Shown in pieces: positions 19,901 to 54,287 of a stretch of DNA of 64,000 bases. The notes beneath the pieces were generated by a model, which was not told where the DNA came from, made no database searches, and saw nothing but the letters and a program-made list of their open reading frames with translations. The stretch's first letter is position 1. Each line of letters begins with the position of its first letter. Made by a program: the position numbers and the translations under genes. The stretch is from positions 1 to 64,000 of the forward strand of contig JAGLTQ010000100.1 of NCBI GenBank assembly GCA_023135195.1, given 5' to 3'. This DNA is from Gammaproteobacteria bacterium (lineage in GTDB: Bacteria > Pseudomonadota > Gammaproteobacteria > UBA6429 > Thiohalophilaceae).

Positions 19901-20086
19901 ACTGCATCAACCGACGACACAGCGGTTCTTTGGCCACTATATCCATATAACATTAAGGCAACAGCAATAAAAAGCCTACCAGCTAATCGAACCTGCTTAA
20001 CTCCAGAAGAACGTGAAAAATATTTCTTAAGTGAATTAACGAAAAAAGAATGGATAGCGCGTGGTTGCGCTCATTATGTAAAATAA
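16925..20086 (+). CDS. TIR-TM-WD40 protein
   Basis: In this 1,053-residue protein the N-terminal TIR domain (about 1-150) has HAFISYRHAD, the FRDEEELP loop, LLIILCSPNS and the putative catalytic Glu at E104 in VADEI, as in NAD-cleaving TIRs. A basic coiled region and one hydrophobic segment (about residues 258-276, SAVAMLSIVAIGAGAIAL) follow. From residue 353 come 16 WD40 repeats of about 41 residues, with consensus HATFSPDGKT and TAVLWS. The WD array is probably the sensor or scaffold and the TIR the effector. Its gene is divergent from the 54-residue gene and stands alone on this strand. Confidence 0.9.
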   Translation: MSQQLKYHAFISYRHADNKEQGRQWATWLHQAIETYEVPKDLIGKKNGLGDIIPARIYPIFRDEEELPTHADLGQSIVKALDSTRLLIILCSPNSVASTYVADEIDYFKRQGGASRIIAAMIAGEPNASWDKGKQASGFKVEDECFPTPLQYEYDNHGNRTENHAEPIAADFRINNNGQTEQGWTSPEAYRQHLKNTTKLNNEQIQKKITQYDQQQHLMLLKIIAGILGVALGELTRRDKEYQLAQERLKAKKLRRWLSAVAMLSIVAIGAGAIALMKQKEAKIERDKALNSQSNLLMGLAKQESDRGHYDTALLLGLNAMPGIYGGDRPMLPISHELRRAVAGNRKLVEFRHKEDVSYATFSPDKKILATVSEDGTAILWSVTSGKKLQILHHKKGVRHITFSPDGKTVVTASSDRTAALWSVATGEKLQTLQHRVAVEHAIFSPHGSIVVTVSWDQTVAIWLVASGKKLISLDFDYGVRQVTFNPNGKILSTVSKDKVVLWSMKDGQKLHTLKHKKNIHHASFSSDGNFILTTSRDKTAVIWLVKTGKKIKTFKHTNGVKYGTFSSDGKTILTASHDNTAVLWSTASGKKLHTLKHKASVLHASFSPDGKTFVTTSVDNTAVLWSVSNGNKLLTLQHKDNVNNAIFSGNGQTLVTTSNDKTAALWNISNNGKPLILQHKNQVYHAEFSSDGETVLTSPWNKSAAIWSTSTGKKLVTLKHKDIIKHATFSPNGKTVATASSDNTAIVWSTINAEKIFTMQHKRDVDHVTFINNKTLLTSSWDKSDVFWSLTTGKKFSTYKHNSTVGAHATLSPDKKTLFTLFDSKDRFGTNYETGSLWSIQTGKKSFSLKHRSAIKHATFSPDSLTILTTSWDNTAVLWSTSSGEKLHTFHHNDDVIHATFSPNGQILVTASEDNTAVIWLVKTGEKILTLRHKDDVNYVSFDKESKKLLTASDDNTAVLWIVSTGEKVQTFQHKDLVKQAKFSPDGKTVLTASTDDTAVLWPLYPYNIKATAIKSLPANRTCLTPEEREKYFLSELTKKEWIARGCAHYVK
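17981..19953 (+). repeat. Sixteen tandem WD40-coding repeats
   Basis: Sixteen in-frame units of about 123 bases, each starting with a His-Lys type codon pair, make up the C-terminal two-thirds of the TIR-WD40 gene. The units are much more alike than typical blades. Unit 12 carries a short insert and unit 11 is slightly shortened. Sixteen units would build two full propellers. The similarity suggests recent expansion, with a high chance of unit gain or loss. Confidence 0.85.
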
Positions 20087-20110: not shown

Positions 20111-22381
20111 TTATAATTTAAGCACATCATCAAAAAACAGAATAAATAATGAAAACGTAAGAACAAATAAAGATACACCAAGCACAGTTGTAATTTTAAC
20201 GAGCCAACGCCAAACTATATGTCCTTGATAAACATTTGAGGCAGCCCAAATAGATCTTGATACAACAAAAACATATGCCGCAAACCAGAAAATAACTAAT
20301 GGTGAATGAGATAAAAAATAAAGGAAAAAATTAATAAAACTTCCAAATACACCAAACAGCCAAAATGTTATGGGCAAACCATAACCACCATCAGTTAATT
20401 TTAAATAACTAAATCCTTTGGTTTTTTTAAATAAATTTACAGGCAAGTGCAGAATATAATTAACAAAACCACCTGTTTTTTTGATTAACCCACTACCCTT
20501 AGTTCGTTCGTGATTTTTAGTATTGAACACATTAAATACTGACTTTATTTTTGAAGAACCATTGACAATGGATTTTTTAAAATCATATTTATTCTTTAAA
20601 TTATTAAATAACGATTCATGTTGCCTGGTTGTTTGCTCGAGATTATCTAAATCTACAAGCAACTCTTCTACACTCTGATAACTTATTTCTTGAGTTGTTT
20701 GAAGACACTTATTAATAACTTTAATTAAACTTTCACTACAACCATTAAAATTTGTCTCTGAATCTACATATTTACGGAAATCTCCTGAAGCATCTCCAGT
20801 AATAAGACTCTTCATAAGAATGCCTATTGAACAAATGTCCGTACGAAGATGCAACTCTGAACCAAGGTAAATAGGCCCCCAAATTTGATAAGGATCAAAT
20901 TCTGGATCTCTTTCCGCCATTTCATTTAAAAACCCCTGATTCTTTTGATAAAAACTCTCTTCCGCTTTACCTAGGTAATTTATTAAAAATAGACGCTCAT
21001 CATGCTTACGTATATAGATATTTCTAAGGTTAATATGCCCATGAAACAGACCTTTAGAATAAACCTCAGAAAGTCCTGTCAATAATTGCTGAACTAACCC
21101 TATTATTTGATTTTCAGAGAAGGGTTTATTATTACGTTCAATAATAAGTTTTTCCAGGATCATTCCATCTGAATAATCCATAACAAGATAGGCCGTTCCA
21201 TTATCAGTAAAAAAATCACGATTACTAATAATAGCAGGTGATTTTTTAAACTGTGTTAACCGTTTGGCACCGAATAGATACTCATCAAGTTCAGCCTTAC
21301 TTATTTCTGATCGTTGACTTCGAGTACTTGGATAAAACTCCTCTATTACCACCTCTTCATCAAGTTGCGTGTGTTTTGCTTTATACACAAAATAAAGCCG
21401 ATCATTCCTTAATGTTTCTGTAATAACATATTGATTTAAAACAGTACCATCAGGCAAAGATTCTCTATAAAACACCTCTTCCGTACTCGTTTCATCAGTA
21501 AGTGCTGCAACTAATTCATCAACACTTTGAAAGCGCTCTTCTTCATTGATCAATAAACATTTATCAATCGCTTGTAGAAAACCAACACTATACTCACCCG
21601 CGCCAACTTCTACAGCAGGAATTAAAGGATCAGGTTTTCGCTTAATCATAGCAGTTAAACGTTTATTCACATTTACTGGATTTTGCCCACTAATGACTCG
21701 CCATATAACTGCGCCAAGTGCATATATATCAGTCCAGGGACCTAAACTCCCTTCATCACTGACTTGTTCCATTGGAACATAACCCACGGTATATGGCGAC
21801 ATCGATTTACTGTGTTTTGAATAGTTTTGTTTAGCTGCACCAAAATCAATAAGAAGAGGTTGCTCATCACCACGCCGGATAAAAATATTAGCTGGCTTAA
21901 TATCGCGATGTAATACCCCTTTTTCGTGCACGAACCTTAAACCATCAAGAAGAGACAGCATCATATTTAAAAGTTGTTTTTCACTTAAAGGTTCATTATT
22001 ACGTGCTCTTAGTAATTCACTAAGCGATAAACCCTCTTCAAAGTCCATTACCAAATAAGCCGTACCATTCTCTGTAAAAAAATCACGGCAGCTGACTATA
22101 TTAGGTAGTTTTTTAAACTGAATGAGTTGCTTGGCTTCATCTAAAAACCGAGCTAAACCTTCATCATAATCATCTTGTTCTTGATTACTTAACGGGTGAA
22201 TAGTCATACCTTCACGTGTGGCTATTTCAGAGGGTAGATACTCTTTAATAACAACAGCTTCATCTAAGTGAGTGTGTTTGGCTTTATAAACAATACCAAA
22301 ACCACCATAAGCAATCATGGATTCAATTTTATATTGTTGTAATACTGTGCCATTAGTTAGGGCATTTTTATGAGAAGTCAT
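20111..22381 (-). CDS. Ser/Thr kinase-pseudokinase membrane protein
   Basis: In this 756-residue protein the first Hanks-type kinase (about 15-300) is intact: GGFGIVYKA loop, K46, HRD at 158-160 with IKPANIF, and DFG at 179-181. A second kinase-like domain (about 316-590) keeps the fold but has Glu347 for the Lys, HGH at 447-449 for HRD and NYL at 468-470 for DFG, so it should be inactive. Three hydrophobic segments end the protein. The first domain is closely similar to that at 27314. It is the last gene of the sigma-small-GAF-subtilase operon. The pseudokinase probably regulates the active half. Confidence 0.92.
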   Translation of the reverse strand: MTSHKNALTNGTVLQQYKIESMIAYGGFGIVYKAKHTHLDEAVVIKEYLPSEIATREGMTIHPLSNQEQDDYDEGLARFLDEAKQLIQFKKLPNIVSCRDFFTENGTAYLVMDFEEGLSLSELLRARNNEPLSEKQLLNMMLSLLDGLRFVHEKGVLHRDIKPANIFIRRGDEQPLLIDFGAAKQNYSKHSKSMSPYTVGYVPMEQVSDEGSLGPWTDIYALGAVIWRVISGQNPVNVNKRLTAMIKRKPDPLIPAVEVGAGEYSVGFLQAIDKCLLINEEERFQSVDELVAALTDETSTEEVFYRESLPDGTVLNQYVITETLRNDRLYFVYKAKHTQLDEEVVIEEFYPSTRSQRSEISKAELDEYLFGAKRLTQFKKSPAIISNRDFFTDNGTAYLVMDYSDGMILEKLIIERNNKPFSENQIIGLVQQLLTGLSEVYSKGLFHGHINLRNIYIRKHDERLFLINYLGKAEESFYQKNQGFLNEMAERDPEFDPYQIWGPIYLGSELHLRTDICSIGILMKSLITGDASGDFRKYVDSETNFNGCSESLIKVINKCLQTTQEISYQSVEELLVDLDNLEQTTRQHESLFNNLKNKYDFKKSIVNGSSKIKSVFNVFNTKNHERTKGSGLIKKTGGFVNYILHLPVNLFKKTKGFSYLKLTDGGYGLPITFWLFGVFGSFINFFLYFLSHSPLVIFWFAAYVFVVSRSIWAASNVYQGHIVWRWLVKITTVLGVSLFVLTFSLFILFFDDVLKL

Positions 22382-22402: not shown

Positions 22403-23173
22403 TTATTTGCCTGTCGATATTGATTTAAGTATCGCTTTAGCTTCTGTTGCAGTTAAATCTGGATAAGCTTGTAACATCAAAGCGACTATTCCTGTTACAT
22501 GAGGTGTTGCAAAGCTTGTTCCTGTTTGAATAGCATATGTTCCTCCTGGGGCGAGCACTTCAATTTCGGTCCCTCTTGCATCGTACTCAATCAGGTTTTT
22601 AGGTCGAAAGCCAATTTGATATTTGTCTTCATAATCTTCGCGATCAACACTGATCACAGATGAAAACATCGCAGGACAACCTAATCCACCAAAATTACGT
22701 TTAGATGAAACTATAATGGTGTTCTGCTCATAGGCTTGTTCTGCTAATTGAAATAATTCCTGGAACCACTGCTTTTTTGAGGTAGCCAAACTCATATTTA
22801 TAAGTTTAATATTTTGATCTAACGCCCACTTCAATCCTGCGATTAAAATATCACCCGAACAATCATTGTATTGGTTGAGTACTTTTATATTAATAATTTC
22901 AACGTCAGGCGCTATGCTGATAACACAACCTGCAACCGCGGTACCATGACCGAAGCTATCATTTGATTTTTCTATCTCTGTTTCAGAACATTCAATATCG
23001 CCACTTTTATTTTTTGAAACGATACAAGTACGTTTTATTTTATCTTTCAGTTCAGGATGTAAACCATCAATCCCACTATCAATAATAGCCACCTGCACAG
23101 TTTTACCTGTTGAGTTTTCACTCAACCATTGCATAGTAAGAGCAGGGTTTATGATTGGGAGCACGTTATTCAT
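22403..23173 (-). CDS. Cytoplasmic subtilisin-like serine protease
   Basis: This 256-residue S8 peptidase carries the complete catalytic triad in DSGID, GHGTAVAG and GTSFATP. The oxyanion Asn is probably in the KRNFGG segment, an altered context compared with the usual AAGN. There is no signal peptide, propeptide or membrane helix, so it should act in the cytoplasm and is a minimal version of the family. It lies between the GAF gene and the kinase-pseudokinase gene with gaps of 13 and 21 bases. Its substrate may be a component of this system, such as the small protein next to the sigma factor, but that is inference. Confidence 0.9.
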   Translation of the reverse strand: MNNVLPIINPALTMQWLSENSTGKTVQVAIIDSGIDGLHPELKDKIKRTCIVSKNKSGDIECSETEIEKSNDSFGHGTAVAGCVISIAPDVEIINIKVLNQYNDCSGDILIAGLKWALDQNIKLINMSLATSKKQWFQELFQLAEQAYEQNTIIVSSKRNFGGLGCPAMFSSVISVDREDYEDKYQIGFRPKNLIEYDARGTEIEVLAPGGTYAIQTGTSFATPHVTGIVALMLQAYPDLTATEAKAILKSISTGK

Positions 23174-23186
23174 ACTTACAAACTAG

Positions 23187-23990
23187 TTATGACCATTTAT
23201 TACGATCACTCATATCGGCAAGTAATTCTGTTAATTTTTTACAAAGAGGTAGAAGATTGTCTTGTTGCTTAGCAATTTTCATCACGTCCTGCATAATGGA
23301 CATGAATTGTTTATCTTCTTCATTAAAATCGATACCTTCAAGCTCCTCTATTTCACTTGAGCTACCAGAAACCAAGTTTTTTAATACTTCTTCGCGTTGT
23401 CGCTGACGCACAACCATTGCAGCAAGATCAGCAAAATGTTTATATGCTTGCATATCTTTAGGCGTAAAGTGATCACCGTTTTGCTTATTCACGGCACTGA
23501 TAGTGCCTACTCCATCATCATTTATAAAAAGTGGTGCAACCAGAACATTTTTGAATTGTATATCTGCTGAGCCTTCAATATCGGTATTAATAGGTGTTGA
23601 TGATTGTATTTCACCTGTAGCAAAGGCTAAGCCATGTTGAGAACCTTCAAGAGGAACATGATAACCAATTACCCCTTCTGCTCCATCACCGATAACGGCT
23701 TTAAAAACAAGCGTGTTTGTTTCGGGATCTAATAGTGTGAGGCCGGCACCACTCGCATTTACAACATACATTGCACTTTGTAAGATCATGGTGAGCAAGG
23801 CATCATCTTGAATATCTGAACCCAGGGCCAAATAACCTAATAATGCTTTTATATTTGTGTTGTTTTCAACGTCGATTAACGATGAAGAGGAACTCTCTGA
23901 ATTTTTCAACTCGCCACTGAGAGAATTAAGTGTTTCTAAGCTATTTTCAATTTGTTTTTTAAGGGTATCAATTTGTTCCTGTAAACTCAT
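23187..23990 (-). CDS. GAF-domain protein
   Basis: This 267-residue protein has an N-terminal coiled coil (about residues 1-35) and a Ser-rich linker, then a GAF domain (about 60-200) with the VNASGAGLTLLD and VPLEGSQHGLAFATG segments. A C-terminal helical tail of about 60 residues follows. GAF domains bind small ligands, including cyclic nucleotides, or act as dimerisation sensors. No output domain is fused, so it probably acts through partners in its operon. GGA stands seven bases before the ATG. It is cytoplasmic by composition. A link to the cyclase in the island is attractive but untested. Confidence 0.85.
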   Translation of the reverse strand: MSLQEQIDTLKKQIENSLETLNSLSGELKNSESSSSSLIDVENNTNIKALLGYLALGSDIQDDALLTMILQSAMYVVNASGAGLTLLDPETNTLVFKAVIGDGAEGVIGYHVPLEGSQHGLAFATGEIQSSTPINTDIEGSADIQFKNVLVAPLFINDDGVGTISAVNKQNGDHFTPKDMQAYKHFADLAAMVVRQRQREEVLKNLVSGSSSEIEELEGIDFNEEDKQFMSIMQDVMKIAKQQDNLLPLCKKLTELLADMSDRNKWS

Positions 23991-27313: not shown

Positions 27314-29698
27314 TTAGTTAATTTCCTGAACAAGGCGAAATCCAAACTTATATTTTTTATTAGTAGCTTTTTCTGGACGTCGATTAGCTACCCGTATTCC
27401 TTTATGATTAGATGTCCAACCACCCCCACGCACTATTCGTTTATTACAATTCCCAGTTAACCAAGCATTTCCATTTTTAGGAGCTCCTTTATAATTATCG
27501 TTATAGCAATCTTGAGTCCATTCCCACACATTGCCATGCATATCATAAAGGCCAAAGTCGTTGGAACGATAACTACCTACTATAGCTGTCCCATTCAACA
27601 CACCATCATTTTTGTAATAACATCCTGAAGATTTAGTTCCACTATATTGTGCTTTAGAACAGCTTACTGAATTACCCCAGCTATACTTACTACGGCTACC
27701 TGCACGGGCTGCATATTCCCACTCTGATTCTGTAGGTAAACGGAAGCGCGTCCCTGTTTGTTTACTAACCCATTTAGCAAAATTTCGAGCATCCTGCCAA
27801 GTTACATATATAACAGGTCGATTACCTCGACCAAAACTATTGTCTTTTAGCTTATTTTTACCTACAGCTCTTGCATATGCATCATACTGATTAAAGGTGA
27901 CTTCTTTGGACATCATTTTAAAAGCAGATAATTTGACGGAGTGAACAGGCTTTTCATCAGAGCTATACGTTGATCCCATACGAAAGCTACCTGATGGTAT
28001 ATTTACCATTTCCCCAACATACCCATGTGCAGCAGCAGCCTTTGCAGCCGCTTTAGCTGCAGCTTTTTCTTTAGCCGCCTTAATTTCTTTTAGTTTCGCT
28101 ATTCGCTTTTTTTCAGCTTCTGCAATAGCTTGTTTTTGTTTAGCCACCTCATCGGGCTCCATCCATTTCCCTCTATACTTTATTAAGTTTCCACCTTTTA
28201 AAGTGTAATCACCTTTTAAGGTTTGTTTCTTTTGAACATAAATATTCTCTTTTAAATTATAGAACTTATCTTTCTTTAGAGTTAAAACGTGTTTCCCAGC
28301 AGTTATATTTAATAATGTTGCCGGTGTCGTTTTTTGTGTATATTTATAATCGACATAAATTCGTGCTCCTTCAGGTGTACTAAACACACTGAAATTGCCT
28401 GTAGCAAGTTTAAGCTTGAATTTTTCTTTACTAATAACATTATCTTCTAATGTTATTGTTTTATTCATATCCTGATAATCAGCATGAGTGAGTTTGATTG
28501 TATGCTTTCCAGCCGGAAGATTACTCCCTACATAAGGCGTTTGACCAAGCAAATGCTCATCCAAATACAAATTAGCACCTCGTGGTTGACTATTTATATG
28601 TAGAACAGCTTTACCTTTGGCGAGTTCATTAGATACTTGAAAAGCAAAAATAGCACCAGCAAAAATAATAGCTAGTCCTGTAAAAACAGCCACTCTTTTA
28701 AGTAAAGGTTTTTTAGATTCAGTCACATGTGAATTGTGTGATTTTTTAGCATTAGGTTTTTTATTTTCTATAGCTGCATCAATTGGCGCTACTATCTCAA
28801 CATTATTAATTTCATGTAAAGCTGAAATTAATTCATTCACACTCTGATAACGGTCGCTATCATTTAATGCCGTACATTTATCAATAATGGTAAGGAGTTC
28901 TTCTGAGTAATTATTGTCAGCCACTTCTTTTGCAGAAACAAAAGGGTCAGGTTGCCCTTTGATAACAGCCGTAAGCCGTTTATTAACATCAACAGGATTC
29001 TGGCCGCTAATGATTCGCCACATCACAGCACCAATAGCATAGATATCAGTCCATGGTCCTAATTCACCATCATCACTGATTTGTTCCATGGGTGCATAAC
29101 CCACTGTAAACGGTGCCATGGATTTTGAGTGTTTTGAGAAGTTTTGTTTTGCTGCACCAAAATCAATTAACAGGGGTTGCTCATCTTCACGGCGAATAAA
29201 AATATTACCGGGTTTAATATCCCGATGCAAAACACCTTTGTCATGCACAAAAGCTAAACCATCTAACAAGGCTAGCATCATATTTAATAAATGCTCTTCA
29301 CTTAGAGGGTCGTTGTTTCGTGCTTTCATTAACTCACTGAGAGACAAACCTTCTTCAAAGTCCATAACCAGATACGCTGTACCATTAAGCGCAAAAAAAT
29401 CACGGCAACTAACAATATTTGGATGTTGTTTAAACTGAACGAGTTGTTTGGCTTCGGCTAAAAAACGATCAAGACCATCCTGGTAATCGTTTTCAACACT
29501 GCCACTTAACGGATGAACGGTTGTCCCTTCTCGTGTCGCAACTTCTGAAGGCAGATATTCTTTTATTACAACCACTTCATCTAAATGAGTATGTCGTGCC
29601 TTATATACAATACCGAAACCACCATGAGCAATAATGGATTCTATTTTATATTTATCTATTACTGTTCCATTTGCTAGGGCGTTTTTATGATCTGACAT
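27314..29698 (-). CDS. Ser/Thr kinase-TM-PEGA-FGE sulfatase-modifying-fold protein
   Basis: In this 794-residue protein the N-terminal Hanks kinase (about 15-300) is intact, with K46, HRD 158-160 and DFG 179-181. One transmembrane helix (about 335-357) follows, then two PEGA domains (about 365-500) with INSQPRGANLYLDE and FSTPEGARIYVD. A Lys/Ala-rich helix and a C-terminal FGE/SUMF1 domain (about 565-794) with GSFRMGS, RLPTESEWEYAAR and GNVWEWTQD complete it. The RGGGW segment lacks the paired cysteines of true formylglycine-generating enzymes, so it is probably a binding domain. The topology puts kinase inside and PEGA/FGE outside, as a receptor kinase. Confidence 0.92.
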   Translation of the reverse strand: MSDHKNALANGTVIDKYKIESIIAHGGFGIVYKARHTHLDEVVVIKEYLPSEVATREGTTVHPLSGSVENDYQDGLDRFLAEAKQLVQFKQHPNIVSCRDFFALNGTAYLVMDFEEGLSLSELMKARNNDPLSEEHLLNMMLALLDGLAFVHDKGVLHRDIKPGNIFIRREDEQPLLIDFGAAKQNFSKHSKSMAPFTVGYAPMEQISDDGELGPWTDIYAIGAVMWRIISGQNPVDVNKRLTAVIKGQPDPFVSAKEVADNNYSEELLTIIDKCTALNDSDRYQSVNELISALHEINNVEIVAPIDAAIENKKPNAKKSHNSHVTESKKPLLKRVAVFTGLAIIFAGAIFAFQVSNELAKGKAVLHINSQPRGANLYLDEHLLGQTPYVGSNLPAGKHTIKLTHADYQDMNKTITLEDNVISKEKFKLKLATGNFSVFSTPEGARIYVDYKYTQKTTPATLLNITAGKHVLTLKKDKFYNLKENIYVQKKQTLKGDYTLKGGNLIKYRGKWMEPDEVAKQKQAIAEAEKKRIAKLKEIKAAKEKAAAKAAAKAAAAHGYVGEMVNIPSGSFRMGSTYSSDEKPVHSVKLSAFKMMSKEVTFNQYDAYARAVGKNKLKDNSFGRGNRPVIYVTWQDARNFAKWVSKQTGTRFRLPTESEWEYAARAGSRSKYSWGNSVSCSKAQYSGTKSSGCYYKNDGVLNGTAIVGSYRSNDFGLYDMHGNVWEWTQDCYNDNYKGAPKNGNAWLTGNCNKRIVRGGGWTSNHKGIRVANRRPEKATNKKYKFGFRLVQEIN

Positions 29699-29738: not shown

Positions 29739-30578
29739 TTATTTAAGAATAGCAAGTAAAAAGGTTGCCCAGAAAGAACGTCCACTTGTAGCATCAATAA
29801 ATTGTCCATTACCTTGCTTTGCAATATTCTTTAACTGTTGTTTCGCTGCGGCATCCTTACCCACTAAAGTTGTTGAAATAACATGACCTTTTTTAGAGGC
29901 AAACCGTCTTACTGTTTTAAATAATTTTGAAGTATCGTCTGAGTGAGCCACGTCATCTGTATAAACAAGAATATATTTTTTCTTTGATTTAGATCTCCAC
30001 GGCATATCTACTGCTGCTCTAACACCTTGATAAAGCGCTTCACCTGAAAAACTATTGCTTCCACCACCTTTACCGATATTTGTTTTTAAATTATTAATGA
30101 ATCTCTCAAGAGATTTTAATTTCGTGCTGCTACTTAGTGTACTTAATTTATAAACTGTTGTTGGTCTATCAAAACCATTGTCGCCAAATACAACAACACC
30201 AATAGCCAGAGATTTAGCCATATTATTAAGCACATCAGCCAGATCAACTATTTCACGTTTTAATGAAGTAATAGAATCACTCATACTTCCTGAAATATCG
30301 AGACAGATAACGACATCTATATCCGGTATTTTTACTTTTGAACCAGCACCTTGTCCACCACTTGGTGCCTTTCCTTTGCTTTTGAGCTTTTTAATTTTTG
30401 ATTTTGCTGCACTTAGTTCCTTTTGTAATTTTTTCAGTTCTGCTTCATTAGAAACCGATGTATTACCAAAGTATGGCAAAGCAATAACAGCTAACAATAT
30501 AAAAGCACCTAACGCTGAGGCAAAAAGATCCAGCGCAGACATGCTAAATATATTGACTTCTCTATTTCGTGTTTTCAT
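29739..30578 (-). CDS. Membrane-anchored vWA protein with ExbD/MotB-like helix
   Basis: This 279-residue protein has one N-terminal transmembrane helix with an acidic residue at its entry (D17 in SALDLF). That is where ExbD, TolR, MotB and ZorB carry their proton-binding Asp. A Lys-rich linker is followed by a vWA domain (about 85-270) with intact MIDAS motif DISGS (D94, S96, S98) and downstream VYTDD. Its operon also encodes a MotA/TolQ-family channel, so I infer the two form a stator-like complex with the vWA domain on the far side of the membrane. Nothing resembling an OmpA peptidoglycan-binding domain is present, unlike MotB or ZorB. Confidence 0.85.
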   Translation of the reverse strand: MKTRNREVNIFSMSALDLFASALGAFILLAVIALPYFGNTSVSNEAELKKLQKELSAAKSKIKKLKSKGKAPSGGQGAGSKVKIPDIDVVICLDISGSMSDSITSLKREIVDLADVLNNMAKSLAIGVVVFGDNGFDRPTTVYKLSTLSSSTKLKSLERFINNLKTNIGKGGGSNSFSGEALYQGVRAAVDMPWRSKSKKKYILVYTDDVAHSDDTSKLFKTVRRFASKKGHVISTTLVGKDAAAKQQLKNIAKQGNGQFIDATSGRSFWATFLLAILK

Positions 30579-30590
30579 ATTTAGCAGTGT

Positions 30591-31982
30591 TTACAAAAAA
30601 TTAACTTTACAGGAAAATGTGCCAATATTTAATTCATCATTATTTTTTAATAATGTAGACTCATCTTTTGCTAATGAAACCCCATTAACCTGAGTACCAT
30701 TAAAGCTTCCTAAATCTGTAACGTGTAATTTATTATCTTCCACTTGCAAGCGAAGATGTAACCTGGAGACCTGCTCGATATTCAACACATGATCTGCATG
30801 TTGACCATGCCGTCCTATTGTTTGACCTTCTTTTGCTCGAGCCAATGTATTTCCGTTAATTTTCAGGCGATGTTCTTTTCCGCTTTCATCAGTACCGACC
30901 AGTAAAATATCATTGAACGTCATAGCAGTTTCTTTTAACTCCTGCTCCATCTGGTCAACTTGTGAGCTTTTCTGCTCTACAGCTATATTAGCTTCTACAA
31001 CTTTCTTATTTCTTTTTCTAATAAGAATAATGCTTATCAACACTATTAAAAATAAAATACCACCCGCCGCATACAACAAGTTTTGTTTTTGCTTTTCTTT
31101 GTCTGCTAGTTCTTTTTTAGATTTTTTATCTGCAGCATCTTTTTTATCTTGTGTTGCTTTTGTTTTTTTATCCGCTTCTTCTTTTTCTTGTTTTAGCTTA
31201 TCTGATTCTTCTTGAGCTGTTTTACTGTCTTTTACACTTTTATCCTGCAACTCTTTGTTCTTTTTCTTTAAAGCATCAGCCGATTTTTTTGCATTTTTTG
31301 TTTCTTTCTTCTCTTTAGCTAATTGTTCTTCCGCTGTTAAACATTTACCGCTTGATTCAACAAAACTTACTTTTGAGCTTTTAAAAAACTTTTTAAGCGT
31401 ACTTAATTCAGACGCAGTATTTGTTGCTCCTGGCTTTTCAAGCCCTAAGGTAAACACACCAACTACTTTGGCTTGATTTAACCCAATTAATTGCCCACAG
31501 GTGTTTAATACTGGAGAACCATGTTGATGCACATTAAATGGCGCAGAATGGACTATCCGGGCAGATTTAACGTCTTCATTTGGTTTTACTATTTGAGTTA
31601 AAACCCCTTTGGTTTTTTTTGTTGCAGACAAACCAAGTAAAATAGGTTCACCTACTCCTGGCATCTTTTTAGAAATTTGAATTGGCTTACCGCTCAAACC
31701 ATTGGCCTTCAACAAAACTAAATCATCAAGCTCTGAATGACCTGTTTTTTTGCTCAATAGTTCTGCATTGGTTTTCCTGTCTTTAATAATATATTGGTCA
31801 CCTAAGCTTAAAAGCGCATTACTGGTTAACACGTGAGTCTTATCAACAATTACACCAATACCTTTGGCTACTTCTTTATTATCTTTAAGTACTTTTACAT
31901 CAACCAAAGAATTGGCGCTTACCGAACTCACCATTACAATTGTGAGAAGAAATATTTTAATTATTAAAGAACCGTAACGCAT
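30591..31982 (-). CDS. Degenerate trypsin-like domain-TM-FHA protein
   Basis: This 463-residue protein has a signal peptide, then a DegP/trypsin-like domain (about 25-205). The catalytic residues are mostly lost: Ala56 stands at the His position (VLTSNALLS), D87 is kept (DLVLLK), and His154 stands at the Ser position (HQHGSPVLN). A long Lys/Glu/Asp coiled coil (about 220-300) follows, then one transmembrane helix (about 304-324) and a cytoplasmic FHA domain (about 370-463) with TIGRHGQ, VSRLHLRL and GSFNGTQVNG. It looks like a sensor: an inactive protease fold outside and a phosphothreonine reader inside. It is 12 bases upstream of the vWA gene. Confidence 0.88.
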   Translation of the reverse strand: MRYGSLIIKIFLLTIVMVSSVSANSLVDVKVLKDNKEVAKGIGVIVDKTHVLTSNALLSLGDQYIIKDRKTNAELLSKKTGHSELDDLVLLKANGLSGKPIQISKKMPGVGEPILLGLSATKKTKGVLTQIVKPNEDVKSARIVHSAPFNVHQHGSPVLNTCGQLIGLNQAKVVGVFTLGLEKPGATNTASELSTLKKFFKSSKVSFVESSGKCLTAEEQLAKEKKETKNAKKSADALKKKNKELQDKSVKDSKTAQEESDKLKQEKEEADKKTKATQDKKDAADKKSKKELADKEKQKQNLLYAAGGILFLIVLISIILIRKRNKKVVEANIAVEQKSSQVDQMEQELKETAMTFNDILLVGTDESGKEHRLKINGNTLARAKEGQTIGRHGQHADHVLNIEQVSRLHLRLQVEDNKLHVTDLGSFNGTQVNGVSLAKDESTLLKNNDELNIGTFSCKVNFL

Positions 31983-32017
31983 GTATTACTCCAGTATCTT
32001 GTTTATATGTTATGTAT

Positions 32018-32833
32018 TTATTTCTTACCTGACGCTGTAGCCACATCTTCTACTTCTGCCTGATCATCTAATTCTGTATCACCATCCAGGAACGAAATAG
32101 CAATTACAGAAGCGTTGTCTTGTCCTGGCCGTTCATGTTGTTCTACTCGCTCTAAAATCTGAAAGGTTAATGCTTTAGCATTGCCATCATTATCATTTGC
32201 CATTTCCAACAATTCTTCTTCTCTGCAAGTTTCAACTCCATCACTTGCTATGAGCACTGTACTGTTAGACGTAATTCCTAATGGATTATCAGGCGCATCC
32301 ACCATCTGAATGTCATCACCCATTACCGCTTCTAATAATTGAGATCTTTGTGGTGAAAAACGGGCTTCTTCCTCAGTGATTTCACCTTTTTCAACCTGTT
32401 TCTGTAATACGGCTGCCATAGAGTGATTTTCATTAATCCGTTCGATTGAGTCATTTTCAATTAACCACATTGGACTATCACCCACACTAATCCATTGTAT
32501 TCTTTCACCATCGGTTAACATGGCGACGAACGTAGTACCCATTCCATCCATATCAGGATTTTCTTCGACATAATCGTAAATAGCATCATTGACTTGTTGC
32601 AGGCAGTCGATAAAGCGTTCTTTTATATTAGCTATCTCACTTTCTATAAATGCACGATGAAATACACCAACCGCGATCTTACTTGCTTCACGACCACCCT
32701 TATGTCCTCCCATTCCATCGGCTAAAACAGACAACCAATTACTATCATCTATCTGAAAGACTTCCAGACTATCTTGCTGTGTTTCTCGTTTACCTATGAT
32801 TTGATCACAAGCAGCATCAACATTGAAAAGCAT
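32018..32833 (-). CDS. PP2C-type Ser/Thr phosphatase
   Basis: This 271-residue protein has all core PP2C motifs: the ETQQDS acid, LADGMGGHKGG, MGTTFVAML, SVGDS, SDGVET and GQDNAS. The metal-binding aspartates are present, so it should be active. It is cytoplasmic, with no membrane segment, and ends with an acidic tail. It lies 6 bases from the FHA gene at 32840. The likely job is to dephosphorylate threonines placed by the two kinases, in particular those in the FHA protein motifs. Confidence 0.93.
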   Translation of the reverse strand: MLFNVDAACDQIIGKRETQQDSLEVFQIDDSNWLSVLADGMGGHKGGREASKIAVGVFHRAFIESEIANIKERFIDCLQQVNDAIYDYVEENPDMDGMGTTFVAMLTDGERIQWISVGDSPMWLIENDSIERINENHSMAAVLQKQVEKGEITEEEARFSPQRSQLLEAVMGDDIQMVDAPDNPLGITSNSTVLIASDGVETCREEELLEMANDNDGNAKALTFQILERVEQHERPGQDNASVIAISFLDGDTELDDQAEVEDVATASGKK

Positions 32834-32839
32834 TTACAT

Positions 32840-33607
32840 TTAGTCCTCTACATTATCCCAGGAGAAATCTGGACTACAAAAGGGAACAAATCGAAGTGTT
32901 GTTTCACCTAATATAATTTCACAATTAGCTTCTAACACTGTTGGCGCTAATACAGGTGCATCATTCATATATGCTAAATTACTACCCGTACCCTGGGAGA
33001 TATAAAACTGTTTACCTCTAGGATCAAAAGTAATCATGGCATGATTTTGTCGGGAAATTTGTCCATCACCGAAATCTATTTTTATACGTTCACTATTATC
33101 TCGGCCAATTGTATTTTGACCAAAGCCTACCTGCATGACATGCCCCATCCCTGGCCCATTAATAATGACTAGCCAGCCTGCAAGAGGATCACTCATTGGA
33201 TCGGCAAGATTATTATCAGAAGTTTGTATGTTATTTTCTGATGTTCCTTTTGATTCTGCTGCTTTAGCTTTCTTTCGACCTCCAAAAATTTGAGTTTTAG
33301 GCTCAGAGAGATCTGCACTAACATCTGGAGTACTAGCTTCTTCTTCATTTTTTTGTTTATGCCGTCCACCAGGTACAGTTGGGACATCATCAGGAAATAA
33401 AGATCCTCCACCCGAGCGCTTTTTAGCAGGAGCAGCTCCAGATGATCTTGCTCCACTCATAGCGCCCTTACCTTCCGGGGGTATAGTGGGTTCATCACCA
33501 CCATAACCTTGTGGCGAAGGTGTATTACTCGATGCTGTATTTTTATTTTTAGCCGGTACAGTTGGCACATCTACTGGTAAACCATCGGGACCCATCTTTT
33601 TAGCCAT
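32840..33607 (-). CDS. FHA protein with repeated Asp-x-Pro-Thr-x-Pro motifs
   Basis: In this 255-residue protein the N-terminal half (about 1-140) is low-complexity and contains three copies of D-(V/E)-P-T-(V/I)-P around T16, T41 and T77, and a related EPKTQIF at T105. The C-terminal half is an FHA domain (about 150-240) with NTIGRDNSERI and ISRQNHAMI. The motif set looks like kinase target sites that the FHA domains of the cluster could read, as with T6SS Fha and mycobacterial GarA. It has no membrane segment. It is the neighbour of the MotA-like channel gene and the PP2C gene. Confidence 0.88.
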   Translation of the reverse strand: MAKKMGPDGLPVDVPTVPAKNKNTASSNTPSPQGYGGDEPTIPPEGKGAMSGARSSGAAPAKKRSGGGSLFPDDVPTVPGGRHKQKNEEEASTPDVSADLSEPKTQIFGGRKKAKAAESKGTSENNIQTSDNNLADPMSDPLAGWLVIINGPGMGHVMQVGFGQNTIGRDNSERIKIDFGDGQISRQNHAMITFDPRGKQFYISQGTGSNLAYMNDAPVLAPTVLEANCEIILGETTLRFVPFCSPDFSWDNVED

Positions 33608-33629
33608 TGTTCAATACTCCTTCACAAAT

Positions 33630-34436
33630 TTATTCTTCGTATAATCGATTAATCAGGTTATCAAGACAGTATTGACCGCTGCCATTTAATGCCATTTCTT
33701 CTCGCGCCTGAGCAACATGCATCATAAAAACCAAGATTGCAGACATAACTAATGCCACTAAGGTGGTGTTAAAAGCGACACCAAGACTTGTGGTTAGTAC
33801 TCCCACCCAGTCCTTAATCGCCTGGCTATCTCCAATGTTTGGCATTGCACTCGCATCAGATAAGGCCATTGCAATACCAATAACCGTACCAATAAACCCT
33901 AGTGTTGGAATTAACCACATAATATAGCGCAACATATTATATTTAAGATCAATTTCATGTTGCATCAACTCAAGACTGGTATTCATTAAGTTATTCGCTT
34001 GTTCGATAGATTTTGTTATTTGAAACTGCATAATCACGCGTTTAAGTAAACGTCGTAGAAAAAATTTGTGATATGAACGTAATTGAGTAACATTTTTATA
34101 AATAGGTACTAAATCTTTTGAGCGCAACATTGTCGCTTCGTCTTCAGGTAATAAAGAATAATCAAGTTGTTGATACTCTTTTGTGCCATGCTCAAATCTA
34201 ACCCAAAGCTCACCAAACCCCAGGAAAAACATCAACCACATAATGTTTTGAATGGTAAAAGGGAAAAGTTCATTACGTACATCAAGTAACACATCAGACA
34301 TGAAAATCTGACCTTTTGCATCACCTGGATCAGGTAATATCAACCATAAACCGAGAATAACGATACATGCCATCATCAGCGAGACTAAAGCAACAATAAC
34401 TCGATATTGTTGATCCTGTTTATAATTTTGTTGCAT
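33630..34436 (-). CDS. MotA/TolQ/ExbB-family proton channel
   Basis: This 268-residue membrane protein has an N-terminal helix pair (about 14-33 and 60-80), a cytoplasmic helical region, and two C-terminal helices with the family signature: TLGFIGTVIGIAMAL and LGVAFNTTLVALVMS. Pore-lining Thr and Gly residues are kept. The extra N-terminal length, and the FHA genes on both sides, separate it from the housekeeping exbB at 54287. I infer that it forms a pentameric stator-type channel whose dimeric partner is the vWA protein at 29739. Confidence 0.9.
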   Translation of the reverse strand: MQQNYKQDQQYRVIVALVSLMMACIVILGLWLILPDPGDAKGQIFMSDVLLDVRNELFPFTIQNIMWLMFFLGFGELWVRFEHGTKEYQQLDYSLLPEDEATMLRSKDLVPIYKNVTQLRSYHKFFLRRLLKRVIMQFQITKSIEQANNLMNTSLELMQHEIDLKYNMLRYIMWLIPTLGFIGTVIGIAMALSDASAMPNIGDSQAIKDWVGVLTTSLGVAFNTTLVALVMSAILVFMMHVAQAREEMALNGSGQYCLDNLINRLYEE

Positions 34437-34457: not shown

Positions 34458-34811
34458 TTAAACTTCTACTTCACCCGTTAATACGTTTCGTTTTGGTTTA
34501 ACGCTAAGAGGTTCAGCCTCATAATTATTTTTCTGTTTTACTGGAGCTGATAGTCCTGATACTAAATCTTTCATAAGAACACGATATTTACCAAAAGCTA
34601 TGTAATCTCCCAGCTCAACATAGCTATGGGTAAATTGTTGCCATTCATTATTACGCAGTACGAAGGTACCCCAGGTACTATCGCAGTCAATTACGTAATA
34701 TCGTGAATTATTAACAAATGATATTTCAGCGTGATTACGAGAAACAGTTTCATCATCTACGACTATATTAGAGACTTCTGATCGTCCAATGGTAAAGGTC
34801 TTAAATGTCAT
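34458..34811 (-). CDS. Stand-alone FHA-domain protein
   Basis: This 117-residue protein is an FHA domain with TIGRSEVSNI, VSRNHAEI and DSTWGTFV, plus a short C-terminal tail of about 30 residues with Lys/Glu/Pro. It binds phosphothreonine peptides in the cytoplasm. It is the first gene of the minus-strand operon, 21 bases before the MotA-like gene, and divergent from the transmembrane PP2C gene. As the smallest FHA protein of the set, it may be an adaptor between the channel and phosphorylated partners. Confidence 0.9.
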   Translation of the reverse strand: MTFKTFTIGRSEVSNIVVDDETVSRNHAEISFVNNSRYYVIDCDSTWGTFVLRNNEWQQFTHSYVELGDYIAFGKYRVLMKDLVSGLSAPVKQKNNYEAEPLSVKPKRNVLTGEVEV

Positions 34812-35062
34812 TAATCTAGCTCAAACCTACATTATTAAATTGATTTTATGCGCATATAAAATAATTAACTTTATAAATAAAACATCTATATCTTCTAATT
34901 TGGATATAAAGACGCCATAACGTTAAAAATATCAGGCGGATGAAAAAGTATCACTTTTGTTGTTAGATTAAAACATCTACTTAATTTTTATGGTAAATTC
35001 CTGAGAAATATAGATTGATTAACTCATTATTATTACTTTGTTTGATTAAATTGGGATTAAAA
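34812..35062. promoter_or_regulatory. Divergent promoter region of the two phospho-signalling transcripts
   Basis: This 250-base AT-rich space separates the first gene of the minus-strand FHA-to-kinase operon from the plus-strand PP2C gene. Both promoters must lie here or nearby. I do not see an unambiguous -35/-10 pair or operator, and the site for the ECF sigma factor of this island cannot be named by eye. Confidence 0.4.
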
Positions 35063-36631
35063 ATGGTTGAAGTTAAAGTACTAACAGATATTGGCGGACG
35101 TGAAGAAAATCAAGATCGAGCGGCATACTTTAAAGATGAAGAACATAATGAAACGCTTATAATCATCGCCGATGGCATGGGTGGTCACAGTGGTGGCAGC
35201 CTTGCAGCAGAAACAATTATTCAAACAGCGGAAACCGCCTGGGCTAATCGGAAATCGGCTTCTGATATTGAAAACTTCCTTAATACTATGGTGATGGATG
35301 CACATAAAGCCATCAATAAAATTGGCAAAGAAAAGGGCATGGATCCCCACTCTACCCTGGTTGCCTTATACCTAAGCGCAGATCAAGCTATTTCAGTTCA
35401 TGTTGGAGATAGTCGCATTATCCAATTCAATGACAATGGTTATGTTAAAAGAAGCATGGATCACTCAATTGCTCAGTTGTTTGTTCTACAAGGAAAAATC
35501 ACTGAAGAAGAAATGGCCAGCCATCCTGACCAAAATAAATTAACCACTAGTATGGGCGGTGAAGATGAACCTGATCTTGAAATTACCCATTGGGCATTAG
35601 AGGAAGGTCTTAAATTTATTCTATGTTCAGATGGTTTTTGGGAAATTGTTAATGTCGATACAATGAGCTCAATTCTTAACTCTGAAAACCTGATTGAATC
35701 ATTACAAAACAGAACCCGGGATGCGCTCCGTTTAGCATCAGATGACCAAGATAATACAACCGCGGTGGTGGTTAAAATTGCTAATGAAAATAAAAAAAAA
35801 TCACTAACATCTAATTATATTCTTATTACTGCATTTGCAATTATAATTCTATCAAGCTTCATGTTCTTTTCTGAAAATAAATCAGAAGATATAACCACCC
35901 AGCATGGAGTTGAAGATAAAAAAGCTCAGACCGATACTACACCAGTCAATCCAGAAACTATACCAACAAAAGAAGAACTTGACGAGCTGGCTAAAATACT
36001 TAAGTTACAAAAAATTATTTTACCCTATGCTAATAAGTTTAATGAAGACAAAGTAAAGAGTGATAATGAAGAAAACAATAAAGAAACGAATAATAAAGGC
36101 TCTTCATCAAAGTTAGGAAAACAAAGCACTGTTGAAGAGGAAGTAGAAATAATCATTACAAACTCTAGTCAAACATCGGCAAAAGTAACTGAACATTTAA
36201 GAAAAAATGGCGTCATCGGCAAAGATGACAAGTTAATAGCAAGCAGAAAAGGAAAGTTGATTAAAGAGACGAATAGCCGTATCACACAACATCAACAAAT
36301 GCACAAAGGTATTTTTATATTAGGGGCGGTAATAACAACTGTTGAACAAAATGGAAAAATTACTGTTCTACAAGGAAAAACCAGCCCTAACATTACTATT
36401 TCAATCATCCCGACTCTCAATTATATGCAAGCCTTAAAAAAATCTAGAAAGCATACAAATACAATATTTGAAAGTAAAGAGACTGGCTCACTTATCATTA
36501 TCAAACAACCTAACGAATATGTCCTTGCCTGGATAGGTCGAGTAAGTAGCAACATTGAAGAAGTAATTGTTATGAATGCACATACTGCAGAGATTATATT
36601 ACGCAGACCAATAATAATAAGTGGTAAATAA
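35063..36631 (+). CDS. Transmembrane PP2C phosphatase with PepSY/FTP-like C-terminus
   Basis: This protein of about 522 residues starts with an active PP2C domain (about 1-235): REENQDR, IADGMGGHSGG, HVGDSR, SDGFWE and QDNTTAV. One transmembrane helix (about 248-267) follows, and then an extracytoplasmic domain of about 250 residues. The last 50 residues (YVLAWIGRVS, IVMNAHTAEIILRR) resemble PepSY/FTP domains of thermolysin propeptides. The next gene, two bases on, encodes a thermolysin-family protease. The start at 35063 has GGGA upstream and matches the PP2C N-terminus; a TTG at 35015 is open but unlikely. Confidence 0.88.
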   Translation: MVEVKVLTDIGGREENQDRAAYFKDEEHNETLIIIADGMGGHSGGSLAAETIIQTAETAWANRKSASDIENFLNTMVMDAHKAINKIGKEKGMDPHSTLVALYLSADQAISVHVGDSRIIQFNDNGYVKRSMDHSIAQLFVLQGKITEEEMASHPDQNKLTTSMGGEDEPDLEITHWALEEGLKFILCSDGFWEIVNVDTMSSILNSENLIESLQNRTRDALRLASDDQDNTTAVVVKIANENKKKSLTSNYILITAFAIIILSSFMFFSENKSEDITTQHGVEDKKAQTDTTPVNPETIPTKEELDELAKILKLQKIILPYANKFNEDKVKSDNEENNKETNNKGSSSKLGKQSTVEEEVEIIITNSSQTSAKVTEHLRKNGVIGKDDKLIASRKGKLIKETNSRITQHQQMHKGIFILGAVITTVEQNGKITVLQGKTSPNITISIIPTLNYMQALKKSRKHTNTIFESKETGSLIIIKQPNEYVLAWIGRVSSNIEEVIVMNAHTAEIILRRPIIISGK

Positions 36632-36633
36632 AT

Positions 36634-38847
36634 ATGTGTAAAAAAACATGGTGTTTTGTTACTTTCTTTAGCTATATATTTTTTGTTAATTCAACTTATT
36701 CCAGAAGCATTATGGACGATCAGCTTCCGCCTGATAATAATGGAAGCTACCAAACAATCATTATAGAAAACGGTACGGAGCTAAAGTCGACAAAAGATGT
36801 ACAACAATGGGCTCAAAAAGAATTACACAACTGGATGGGCCTATCTGAAAATGATCAACTTGATATAAGTTTCCCCGAAAAATCAAAAGGAAATTATAAG
36901 TTTTATCGCATCGAACAAAAACACCATGGAATTCCAGTTATAGGACTTGAAGCAACACTATTAACATTCAAAGGGAAACCGGATTATATATTAGGCCGTA
37001 ATCACGCTATTAATAATATTCGACACAAACCATCCATCACCGAACAACAAGCAATTAACAATAGTAAAGTGATTACTGATAAAAAGAATGAAATTAATTT
37101 AGTTTACTGGCGCAAATCAAAAAGTGATATCACTTTAAGTTATGAAATTACAGGTACCTTTGAATACAAATCTGGTACAAGAGATGAAAAAGTTTATGTT
37201 AATGCTGTCAATGGAAAAATCCATAATCGAGTAGCATTAGAATATAGTTCGATTAAAAGACATATTGTTGATGTTGAATCCGCGTGTCGGGATCTTGGTA
37301 TCAACCGACCTGTTTCTTCCAAAAAAATGAATAAAGTTTTAGATCATGCAATTCGAAATTTTTCCCGAAAAGAAGGTGATGCCCCTACAGGCATAGAAAC
37401 GACTGATTATTTTTATGATCTAATGGGAAGTGCTTATATATTCCTGAAAACAACATATAACATGGATAGCCTTAATGATTCGGGTATGTATTTAAATGGT
37501 ATTGGCCGAATACGATTTAATCAGCATGTCAAAGGCATACAGTGTACTGGCAATGATTTTAATGCTTTTTGGAATGGCCATGCAAATGCACTTTTTGTAC
37601 CTGACTCAGCTATAAAATATACTGAGGTCGTTGCTCATGAGCTTGCTCATGGCATTGTTAGCAATGGCAGCAACCTTGTTTATCAAGATCAATCCGGAGC
37701 ATTAAATGAAGCCATTGCAGATGCTATTGGCGTTACATTCAGAGCATGGTTAGAATCAGGTGGGAATGAAAATAATGCTGTTACTAAAATAAATACAAGA
37801 AGAGGCATTTGGAAATTAAGAAGTCCCAGAGGCATTTTAAGGGATATGAAAACCCCTAAAAATGCTGATCCCAAATTACCGGATCATATGAGTAGCTATG
37901 TGTACACCAGTCGAGACCACGGTGGTGTTCATATAAATTCGAGTATTATCAATCAAGCATTTTATATTCTAAGTAAAGGTGGCAAACATCCCAGACGAAG
38001 AACCGGCTCCCGAGTTAAAGGCATAGGTATTAAGAAAGCGAGTCAAATATTCGCTCTCGCTGCCAGTCATATTTTAACTCCTACATCAGATTTTAAAGAT
38101 GCACGTTATGCCTTTGCCCGTGCCGCCAAGGTTCTATTTGGCAAACGTTCTCATGCCTGGGTTGCTGTGCATAAAAGTATGGATGCCGTAGGTATATCTG
38201 GCAAATGGAGTATCCCTAAGCCAAGAAAGGTTGTTGTTATTCCTCCAGCTAAAACAACAACAAAGAGTACTACAAAAATACCGACTACAAGTACAAGCTC
38301 AACTAAAACAGCTCAGGTTCCCTCAAAAACTTCAAAAACAAAAGGGAAATCAACAACAAAATCTAAATCACATTCATCTAATTCAAAAATATGGATAGCC
38401 CTTATAATTATTGGCGCTATGTTAATTATTTTTGTTTTGATAAAAATGCGACCTAATGATAAGCAAGTCGTCGGACAGTTTGAGAGAGAGACTGATAAGT
38501 CTGATGAAAATAATAAGGATTCAATTAATCAAAATATATTTGGTCATCTTGAAGCTTTAGATGGTACTGAAGCTATCCCATTAAACAATGCATTATTAGA
38601 CAGTGAAGAAGGTTTGATTATCGGTAGAGCGCATGAACTAGTTCACATCATCATGGAAAACAAAGATATTTCGCGACGTCATTCACGTATTAAATTATTT
38701 AACTCTCAACTATATATAGAAGACATGAATTCAACTTATGGTACACAAGTTGATGGTGTCAAACTCAGTCCATTTAAACCTTCTAAAATCAGTGAACAAC
38801 AAATTGTACGTTTTGCGGGGTTCTCTTATCAGCTAAAGTTAGGTTGA
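36634..38847 (+). CDS. Thermolysin-family (M4) protease-TM-FHA protein
   Basis: This 737-residue protein starts with a signal peptide, then an FTP/PepSY propeptide region (about 45-205). The M4 catalytic domain (about 230-525) is complete: HELAH at 335-339, zinc ligand E359 and proton donor H433 in GVHINSS. A Thr/Ser-rich linker, one transmembrane helix (about 587-606) and a cytoplasmic FHA domain (about 640-737; LIIGRAHE, ISRRHSRI, STYGTQVDG) follow. M4 enzymes are normally secreted, so a membrane-tethered form with a phosphothreonine reader is unusual. It is translationally linked to the transmembrane PP2C gene. Confidence 0.93.
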   Translation: MCKKTWCFVTFFSYIFFVNSTYSRSIMDDQLPPDNNGSYQTIIIENGTELKSTKDVQQWAQKELHNWMGLSENDQLDISFPEKSKGNYKFYRIEQKHHGIPVIGLEATLLTFKGKPDYILGRNHAINNIRHKPSITEQQAINNSKVITDKKNEINLVYWRKSKSDITLSYEITGTFEYKSGTRDEKVYVNAVNGKIHNRVALEYSSIKRHIVDVESACRDLGINRPVSSKKMNKVLDHAIRNFSRKEGDAPTGIETTDYFYDLMGSAYIFLKTTYNMDSLNDSGMYLNGIGRIRFNQHVKGIQCTGNDFNAFWNGHANALFVPDSAIKYTEVVAHELAHGIVSNGSNLVYQDQSGALNEAIADAIGVTFRAWLESGGNENNAVTKINTRRGIWKLRSPRGILRDMKTPKNADPKLPDHMSSYVYTSRDHGGVHINSSIINQAFYILSKGGKHPRRRTGSRVKGIGIKKASQIFALAASHILTPTSDFKDARYAFARAAKVLFGKRSHAWVAVHKSMDAVGISGKWSIPKPRKVVVIPPAKTTTKSTTKIPTTSTSSTKTAQVPSKTSKTKGKSTTKSKSHSSNSKIWIALIIIGAMLIIFVLIKMRPNDKQVVGQFERETDKSDENNKDSINQNIFGHLEALDGTEAIPLNNALLDSEEGLIIGRAHELVHIIMENKDISRRHSRIKLFNSQLYIEDMNSTYGTQVDGVKLSPFKPSKISEQQIVRFAGFSYQLKLG

Positions 38848-53870: not shown

Positions 53871-54287
53871 TTATTTTTTATTAACTTGTTTTGTTGCAAA
53901 GGTTAAATGTACCAGACCCAGCTGACGTGCGGCATCCATCGCTCTTACCACAGACTGATGTGGTGTCATTTTGTCTGCACTAATAATCAATTTAGGTTCT
54001 TTAAAATCACCACGTGTAATGGAAATGGCTTTTTTTAATGTTTTGATATCGGAATCTTTTAATCGACGTTGATTTACAAAGTAACGACCTTGATTATCAA
54101 TACTAATCTCAATTACTTTTTTCTTAGACTCAGCCACTTCGCCAGATGACTCTGGTAATTCAATCGTTATTTCAGATTCACGTTGGAAAGTGGTTGATAC
54201 CATAAAGAATATTAACAGTAAGAACACAACATCAATTAAAGGTGTTATGTTTAATTCAAGTTCAGTATCACGTTTGGTACGTAACAT
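53871..54287 (-). CDS. exbD: ExbD/TolR-family protein
   Basis: This 138-residue protein has one transmembrane helix (about 16-36) with the proton-binding Asp in PLIDVVFLLLIFF, and a periplasmic domain ending near residue 138. It pairs with the ExbB-type channel in the next upstream gene, whose stop overlaps its start by one base. In this gene order (exbB-exbD-msbA-lpxK) no tonB is adjacent. It energises a TonB- or Tol-type process using the proton motive force. Confidence 0.93.
   Translation of the reverse strand: MLRTKRDTELELNITPLIDVVFLLLIFFMVSTTFQRESEITIELPESSGEVAESKKKVIEISIDNQGRYFVNQRRLKDSDIKTLKKAISITRGDFKEPKLIISADKMTPHQSVVRAMDAARQLGLVHLTFATKQVNKK

Follow-up and report, generated by a model that had tools for sequence, protein, structure and literature searches.

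P0002 and P0001, two proteins encoded within a 64,000-nucleotide stretch of contig JAGLTQ010000100.1 from a gammaproteobacterium of the Thiohalophilaceae (assembly GCA_023135195.1; 2.7 Mb, 232 contigs, 86% complete), very probably form an inner-membrane ion motor of the ExbBD/MotAB/ZorAB type, which may be coupled to phospho-signalling. The whole stretch is referred to below as the window. P0002 resembles the A subunit of these 5:2 motors, whereas P0001 is a B-like axle protein ending in a von Willebrand factor A (vWA) domain. At the level of sequence, both families are conserved and have the residues that a 5:2 motor should have, their genes co-occur, and the head of the axle is modular. An earlier note on this DNA had proposed that a MotA/TolQ-family protein at 33630 and a single-helix vWA protein with Asp17 at 29739 are the two parts of such a motor. 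Both open reading frames were recovered with the expected helices and domains (Table 1), and the pairing itself is very probable given the functional residues, the co-occurrence across phyla and the lack of ExbD or MotB genes in the family loci.

By analogy with MotAB, ExbBD and ZorAB, we infer an A5B2 assembly, ion binding at Asp17 and relative rotation. P0002 would form a ring, by analogy a pentamer, and the N-terminal helix of P0001, by the same analogy a dimer, would run through it with Asp17 facing a ring of Thr184 and Thr225. Ions (H+ or Na+) binding to Asp17 would then drive the relative rotation. The periplasmic heads would not serve as peptidoglycan anchors; in P0001 the candidate head is a vWA domain with a metal ion-dependent adhesion site (MIDAS), and in relatives it would be a YfaP-like beta domain or another fold carried by the same helix. 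As to clients and direction of control, we infer that the heads may pass motion to periplasmic partners or be held by them, the best candidates being the PEGA-FGE region of P0007, the HtrA-like domain of P0003, or both, and that the cytoplasmic FHA proteins, kinase and PP2C would couple the motor to phosphorylation, either by switching it or by reading out its state as that of an envelope sensor.

The A subunit

P0002 belongs to the MotA/TolQ/ExbB family by its match to the Pfam MotA_ExbB model, and no second P0002 match was found elsewhere in the genome. A profile of 60 family A subunits, compared in hhalign, matches ExbB/TolQ at 92% (6.5e-7) and MotA at 91% (1.1e-6), in a register that places Thr184 on the Thr of the GTV motif in transmembrane helix 3 (TM3) and Thr225 on the Thr of TM4. 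These two polar residues, expected in the ring of a 5:2 motor, are present in all 60 sequences, and W174, P177, G180, F181, G183, L218, F222, L229 and E247 are likewise invariant. In a tree of 72 sequences, three groups (the window family, its sister group and one more) split from ExbB/TolQ and MotA with a support of 100/99.

The AlphaFold2 model of the A part from a relative in locus L163 has a predicted local distance difference test score of ~95. Foldseek listed 50 PDB matches for this model, all of them ExbB, TolQ, ZorA, MotA or PomA, and the best was ZorA (8vvn, TM-score 0.60). The model derives from an artificial read-through of two separate genes, which share a reading frame and are divided by a single TAG. 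An alignment in which MAFFT had placed helix-only rows on TM4 was dropped in favour of another.

The axle helix and Asp17

P0001 has the sequence traits of a B subunit, namely a short, cationic and cytoplasmic N-terminus followed by a single hydrophobic segment (residues 16-34), with the conserved Asp17 at its cytoplasmic start. Its family was collected by scanning genome contigs with the 75-residue N-terminus of P0001, which yielded 79 further loci from Pseudomonadota, Binatota, Latescibacterota, Gemmatimonadota, Acidobacteriota and other phyla. Two search patterns were used, one of them containing Asp17. The Asp is retained in 84 of 84 collected helices, a collection that itself required the LD motif; in an unbiased test with the Asp-free pattern, each of the 32 matching frames has the Asp, and 11 of these frames miss the Asp pattern entirely. 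The loss of Asp17 among homologues, named in the earlier note as grounds for abandoning the idea, was thus not encountered. L16, D17 and G24 are the only invariant positions in 77 full-length proteins, 43 of which match the ZorB1 model. Furthermore, a Phe at D+9 is kept in 82 of the 84 helices, as it is in most of the ExbD, MotB and ZorB rows compared. At the profile level the family helix and ZorB align with Asp on Asp at 35%, a value similar to those of the accepted ZorB-ExbD (34%) and ExbD-MotB (54%) pairs, and the alignment with MotB reaches 3.5% with a one-residue gap.

The mean charge of the family helices is +2.3 in the N-terminus and -0.5 in the stretch after the helix, and because of this bias the head of P0001 should be periplasmic. 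An ordinary ExbB/ExbD pair in the same window (54910-53871) provides an internal control: the ExbD of that pair (53871-54287) has the sequence LNITPLIDVVFLLLIFFMV in the place of NIFSMSALDLFASALGAFILL of P0001, and P0001 itself has no ExbD-domain match.

Co-occurrence of the two subunits

An A orthologue is present in 59 of the 79 helix loci, mostly on the same strand, and 18 of the other 20 genomes, which are mostly fragmented assemblies, hold a relative elsewhere (12 below 1e-50). ExbD and MotB profiles that picked up their control sequences gave no match in any family locus, which leaves the Asp-helix protein as the sole candidate partner in view. Only 6 close A orthologues, including that of the window, occur in 274 genomes of the class, which makes the distribution patchy; the five other genomes (48-58% identity) are the same five that match P0001, over its first 37-71 residues and, in one genome, over the whole protein. 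In addition, T224 of the A subunit is replaced by Cys in two sequences only, those whose axles have a divergent motif (LLDILCGALGAF and VLDLLTGALGAF), a suggestive co-variation with n = 2.

At L163:5713-7458, L149:9098-10753 and L164:8690-10834, the A gene and the axle gene share one reading frame that is interrupted only by a stop and a few bases. A natural A-B fusion may exist, and it would strongly support the pair.

Exchangeable heads

The vWA domain of P0001 was seen in the earlier note as the arm of the motor, with a MIDAS and in place of a peptidoglycan-binding domain. The domain spans residues 88-264, its predicted model matches BatB and integrin vWA domains in Foldseek, and its 16 closest vWA-type relatives all keep the MIDAS residues D94, S98 and D208; the position of the canonical MIDAS Thr is not obvious. 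P0001 has no OmpA-like peptidoglycan-binding head of the MotB/ZorB kind. By motif-based classes, the same helix carries 38 vWA heads, 38 beta heads with a DxDLHV-type motif, which resemble DUF2135/YfaP in Pfam in the few that score, and 6 other heads. Traced along the A-subunit tree, there are 8 changes of head type, at least 2 of them forced by supported branches. The vWA domain is present in P0001 as noted, but it is interchangeable with other heads and is not the constant part, which had been overlooked. As judged from these comparisons, the helix is the constant part of the system and the head is a module, and the vWA domain was dropped as the family-defining feature. Two Asp-helix proteins are encoded in each of eight loci (L094, L111, L113, L123, L158, L168, L169 and L171).

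The sister group (L067-L084) has A subunits 30-38% identical to those of the window family, and its helix profile matches the window helix at 97.5% (6e-12). Mostly two different Asp-helix proteins with the motif SFLDIxSCGFGA, some of which carry vWA domains, are encoded side by side in its loci, and the axle of this group may be hetero-dimeric. A TM/PEGA/FGE protein is present in 13 of 16 sister-group loci, the A gene lying near a contig end in the other three. The PEGA-FGE periplasmic part is a reasonable motor client because it forms a separate protein in the sister group, whereas in the window it is part of the kinase polypeptide.

A conserved protein of ~430 residues (L069:7046-8335), with no confident Pfam match, is often found between the A gene and the axles of the sister group. 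The third A-subunit group (L086-L089) is accompanied by helix proteins of another type, with ALADILANxVAVILIL and EIFGGxFALLLV motifs, the latter with Glu in place of Asp, and the partners scanned in this group gave no confident Pfam match.

Observations that weigh against the motor

Several results count against the motor proposed here. The match of the helix profile to ZorB is weak, covering a short segment and just three ZorB rows, and the alignment of this profile with ExbD is out of register rather than Asp-on-Asp (E=0.15). The Foldseek E-values of the A model are modest (best 1.9e-3), though with a probability of 1.00, and the joint A and B model from L163, an artificial read-through with no contact data, is unusable as interface evidence. 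Moreover, 20 of the 79 loci have no A gene within the fetched stretch, and two of these genomes show none at all.

Operon and neighbouring genes

The genes form a compact minus-strand operon running from 34811 to 27314 in the order P0005, P0002, P0004, P0006, P0003, P0001 and P0007, with gaps of 6-40 bp (Table 1). The FHA and kinase genes reported earlier are there, as two FHA proteins and a TM kinase, along with a PP2C and a trypsin-like/TM/FHA protein. The C-terminal domain of P0007 matches the NCBIfam GldK model at 5e-33, FGE being a common domain family.

Table 1. Genes and key codons of the putative motor operon and its accessory genes (window positions).
Feature	Position	Strand	Match or conservation
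P0005, FHA protein, first operon gene	34458..34811	-	FHA 2e-15
P0002, A-subunit-like MotA/TolQ/ExbB-family protein, 268 residues, four TM helices	33630..34436	-	Pfam MotA_ExbB 8.7e-12
Thr184 codon (P0002 TM3), Thr of the ExbB/TolQ GTV motif	33885..33887	-	conserved 60/60
Thr225 codon (P0002 TM4), TM4 Thr of ExbB/TolQ	33762..33764	-	conserved 60/60
P0004, FHA protein	32840..33607	-	FHA 2.3e-7
P0006, PP2C phosphatase	32018..32833	-	PP2C_2 4.3e-12
P0003, signal peptide / HtrA-like trypsin domain / coil / TM 303-321 / cytoplasmic FHA	30591..31982	-	
P0001, B-like axle protein, 279 residues: cationic N-terminus, TM 16-34, coil ~45-68, vWA 88-264	29739..30578	-	VWA 6.4e-15
Asp17 codon (P0001), putative ion-binding residue	30528..30530	-	invariant in family alignment
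MIDAS Asp94 codon, DxSxS (P0001)	30297..30299	-	invariant in 16 closest vWA-type relatives
MIDAS Ser98 codon (P0001)	30285..30287	-	invariant in 16 closest vWA-type relatives
MIDAS Asp208 codon (P0001)	29955..29957	-	invariant in 16 closest vWA-type relatives
P0007, Ser/Thr kinase / TM 336-354 / PEGA x2 / FGE-sulfatase-like domain	27314..29698	-	
P0009, divergent PP2C with TM, accessory; also accompanies the system in several Gammaproteobacteria	35015..36631	+	
P0008, thermolysin-like M4 protease / TM / cytoplasmic FHA, accessory	36634..38847	+	

In the trypsin-like domain of P0003 the catalytic His is gone (TSNALL for TNxHV), as is GNSGGP (QHGSPV), so the protease site is lost in this genome. 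Most relatives retain both motifs, and loci with two copies often have one that is degenerate. P0008 is a second envelope protease bearing a phosphopeptide-binding tail. In Alteromonadaceae, SAR86 and Pseudomonas sp. WN033, too, genes of this M4 protease-FHA type adjoin the putative motor operon (recurrence in L093, L107-L110, L124, L125 and L131).

Further genes of the window were identified by eye. Three large plus-strand proteins around the operon (16925-20086, 43464-46508 and 46512-49655) have an N-terminal TIR/SEFIR-like region (FISYRH or FISYSH in two of them), a TM segment and WD40-like repeats, and are possible effector or sensor genes. A second kinase gene on the minus strand (20111-22381) apparently contains a pair of kinase-like repeats, of which the second may be inactive, and has several TM segments at its C-terminal end; genes for an S8-like protease (22403-23173) and a GAF-like protein (23187-23990) come next.

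Phospho-signalling and alternative readings

Among the 40 family loci that span 18 kb or more, FHA genes are found in 37, the A subunit in 36, kinase and PP2C genes in 33 each, and a trypsin-FHA gene in 28, the gene order FHA-A-FHA-PP2C recurring widely. Two readings of this neighbourhood differ in the direction of control, which is what their likelihoods refer to, and both are compatible with the motor. It is possible, though we hold it tentatively, that the motor is switched by phosphorylation, the kinase modifying the A subunit or an FHA-bound adaptor and so opening or closing ion flow; the kinase, PP2C and FHA genes (the last as two stand-alone genes) flank the A gene in most of these loci across phyla. 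However, the motor core occurs without them in most sister-group loci (of 16, FHA genes are present in 2, kinase in 2 and PP2C in 1), and phosphorylation is therefore not intrinsic to the motor. In addition, both the phosphosite and the FHA target are hypothetical, and operon content gives no direction. Phospho-gating, direction of control included, is thus a speculative reading of operon content.

A sensor role is about as likely as that of a kinase-gated actuator. The head would feel an envelope disturbance, rotation would change, and the FHA proteins and kinase would read that change. The nearest helix and fold relatives are ZorB and ZorA, and Zorya is modelled as an envelope sensor that detects damage via its head and signals inward (PMC11890865). 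Furthermore, the heads vary as sensor domains do, the distribution of the system is patchy, and the TIR-like and WD40-like genes assigned by eye lie nearby in the window. On the other hand, no nuclease or other Zorya effector gene was found, and defence models match the core only as weak ZorA/ZorB and generic kinase matches.

It is improbable that there is no motor at all and that the vWA protein is a membrane-anchored adaptor for phosphorylated FHA partners, like ArnB (vWA) with ArnA (FHA) in archaea. FHA and vWA genes do share the operon, and an FHA-vWA phospho-complex is known (PMC6509490), but the charge bias places the vWA head in the periplasm, away from the cytoplasmic FHA domains; moreover, it is the helix and not the vWA domain that is conserved, and an adaptor helix would have no reason to keep the Asp or to track the A subunit. 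It is more improbable still that the vWA protein is unrelated to the A subunit and that the latter works with an ordinary ExbD/TolR or MotB from another locus. Several ExbD genes and two MotB genes are present in the genome, and an ExbBD pair falls within the window (53871-54910), but this ExbD adjoins its own ExbB; moreover, no family locus has an ExbD or MotB gene, 59 of the 79 loci link the A subunit to the Asp-helix protein, and this A subunit branches apart from ExbB/TolQ and MotA.

Relation to known systems

The proposed motor resembles ZorA/ZorB in the fold of its A subunit, a weak Asp-on-Asp alignment of its B helix and the combination of a motor core with cytoplasmic signalling partners, but it differs in having a vWA or other head instead of a peptidoglycan-binding one, no long ZorA tail (the A subunit has 268 residues) and a phospho-signalling operon. 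It falls outside Zorya, since ZorA models give 10-25 bits against NCBI cut-offs of 500-700, and no match to ZorC, ZorD, ZorE or another Zorya gene was found among the eight proteins scanned. With ExbB/ExbD and TolQ/TolR it shares the GTV of TM3 and the Thr of TM4 in the A subunit and the topology of the B subunit, whereas its A subunit has four TM helices rather than three and lies on a separate branch, and its head is vWA or YfaP-like beta; no TonB/TolA-type gene was recognised in the operon. Like the MotA/MotB stators, it has a four-TM A subunit (profile 91%) and one B helix with an Asp, but it lacks the OmpA-like peptidoglycan domain, has no flagellar genes in the operon and also branches separately from them.

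GldK is an FGE-fold ring protein above the GldLM motor, and GldL/GldM with GldK, of type IX secretion and gliding, likewise combine a motor, the periplasmic part of which is not of the OmpA type, with a companion of FGE fold. However, the present comparisons establish no homology of the A and B subunits to GldL and GldM, and the parallel may be coincidental given that the FGE family is common. The AglR/AglQ/AglS gliding motor of Myxococcus has one A subunit and two different, TolR-like B-type partners; the sister group resembles it in having two B-type partners per A subunit, but Agl has no vWA head. To our knowledge, neither ArnA-ArnB nor the vWA/PP2C/kinase triads include a motor subunit or a transmembrane Asp helix. 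What the present operon shares with them is the joint presence of FHA and vWA in ArnA-ArnB (PMC6509490) and of vWA, kinase and PP2C genes encoded together in the triads of conflict systems (PMC7159879).

MotA, TolQ and ExbB are not mentioned in the conflict-system survey (PMC7159879), nor is a vWA partner in a review of 5:2 motors (PMC9389320). A survey of MotAB homologues, in which the non-flagellar ones are diverse and in part of unknown function, mentions neither vWA nor FHA (PMC12505986). In the open-licence literature of PubMed Central, no paper on these motors was found with a vWA partner, and none on the combination.

Significance

Known 5:2 motors drive flagella, gliding, nutrient uptake, outer-membrane upkeep and phage defence. 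The system described here is a modular variant of these motors, separate from ExbBD, MotAB and Zorya, and not a new principle. It is conceivable, although we would not yet count on it, that it represents a distinct and widespread class of ion-driven rotary motors for transmembrane signalling. In such a motor one conserved axle helix with exchangeable periplasmic heads, in some cases with a second, different axle in the ring, would form a mechanical link from a PEGA-FGE or HtrA-like client in the periplasm to cytoplasmic kinase, phosphatase and FHA proteins, with phosphorylation setting the motor state or the reverse.

The family extends the known motors by a clade that has a partner helix of its own, interchangeable heads unlike the usual cell-wall anchors, and a phospho-signalling operon. 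The head swaps make it testable which part of the motor is fixed and which rotates, and how a periplasmic head sets function. If the coupling between kinase and motor is true, it would be, as far as we found, the first described link of this class of rotary motors to Ser/Thr kinase signalling.

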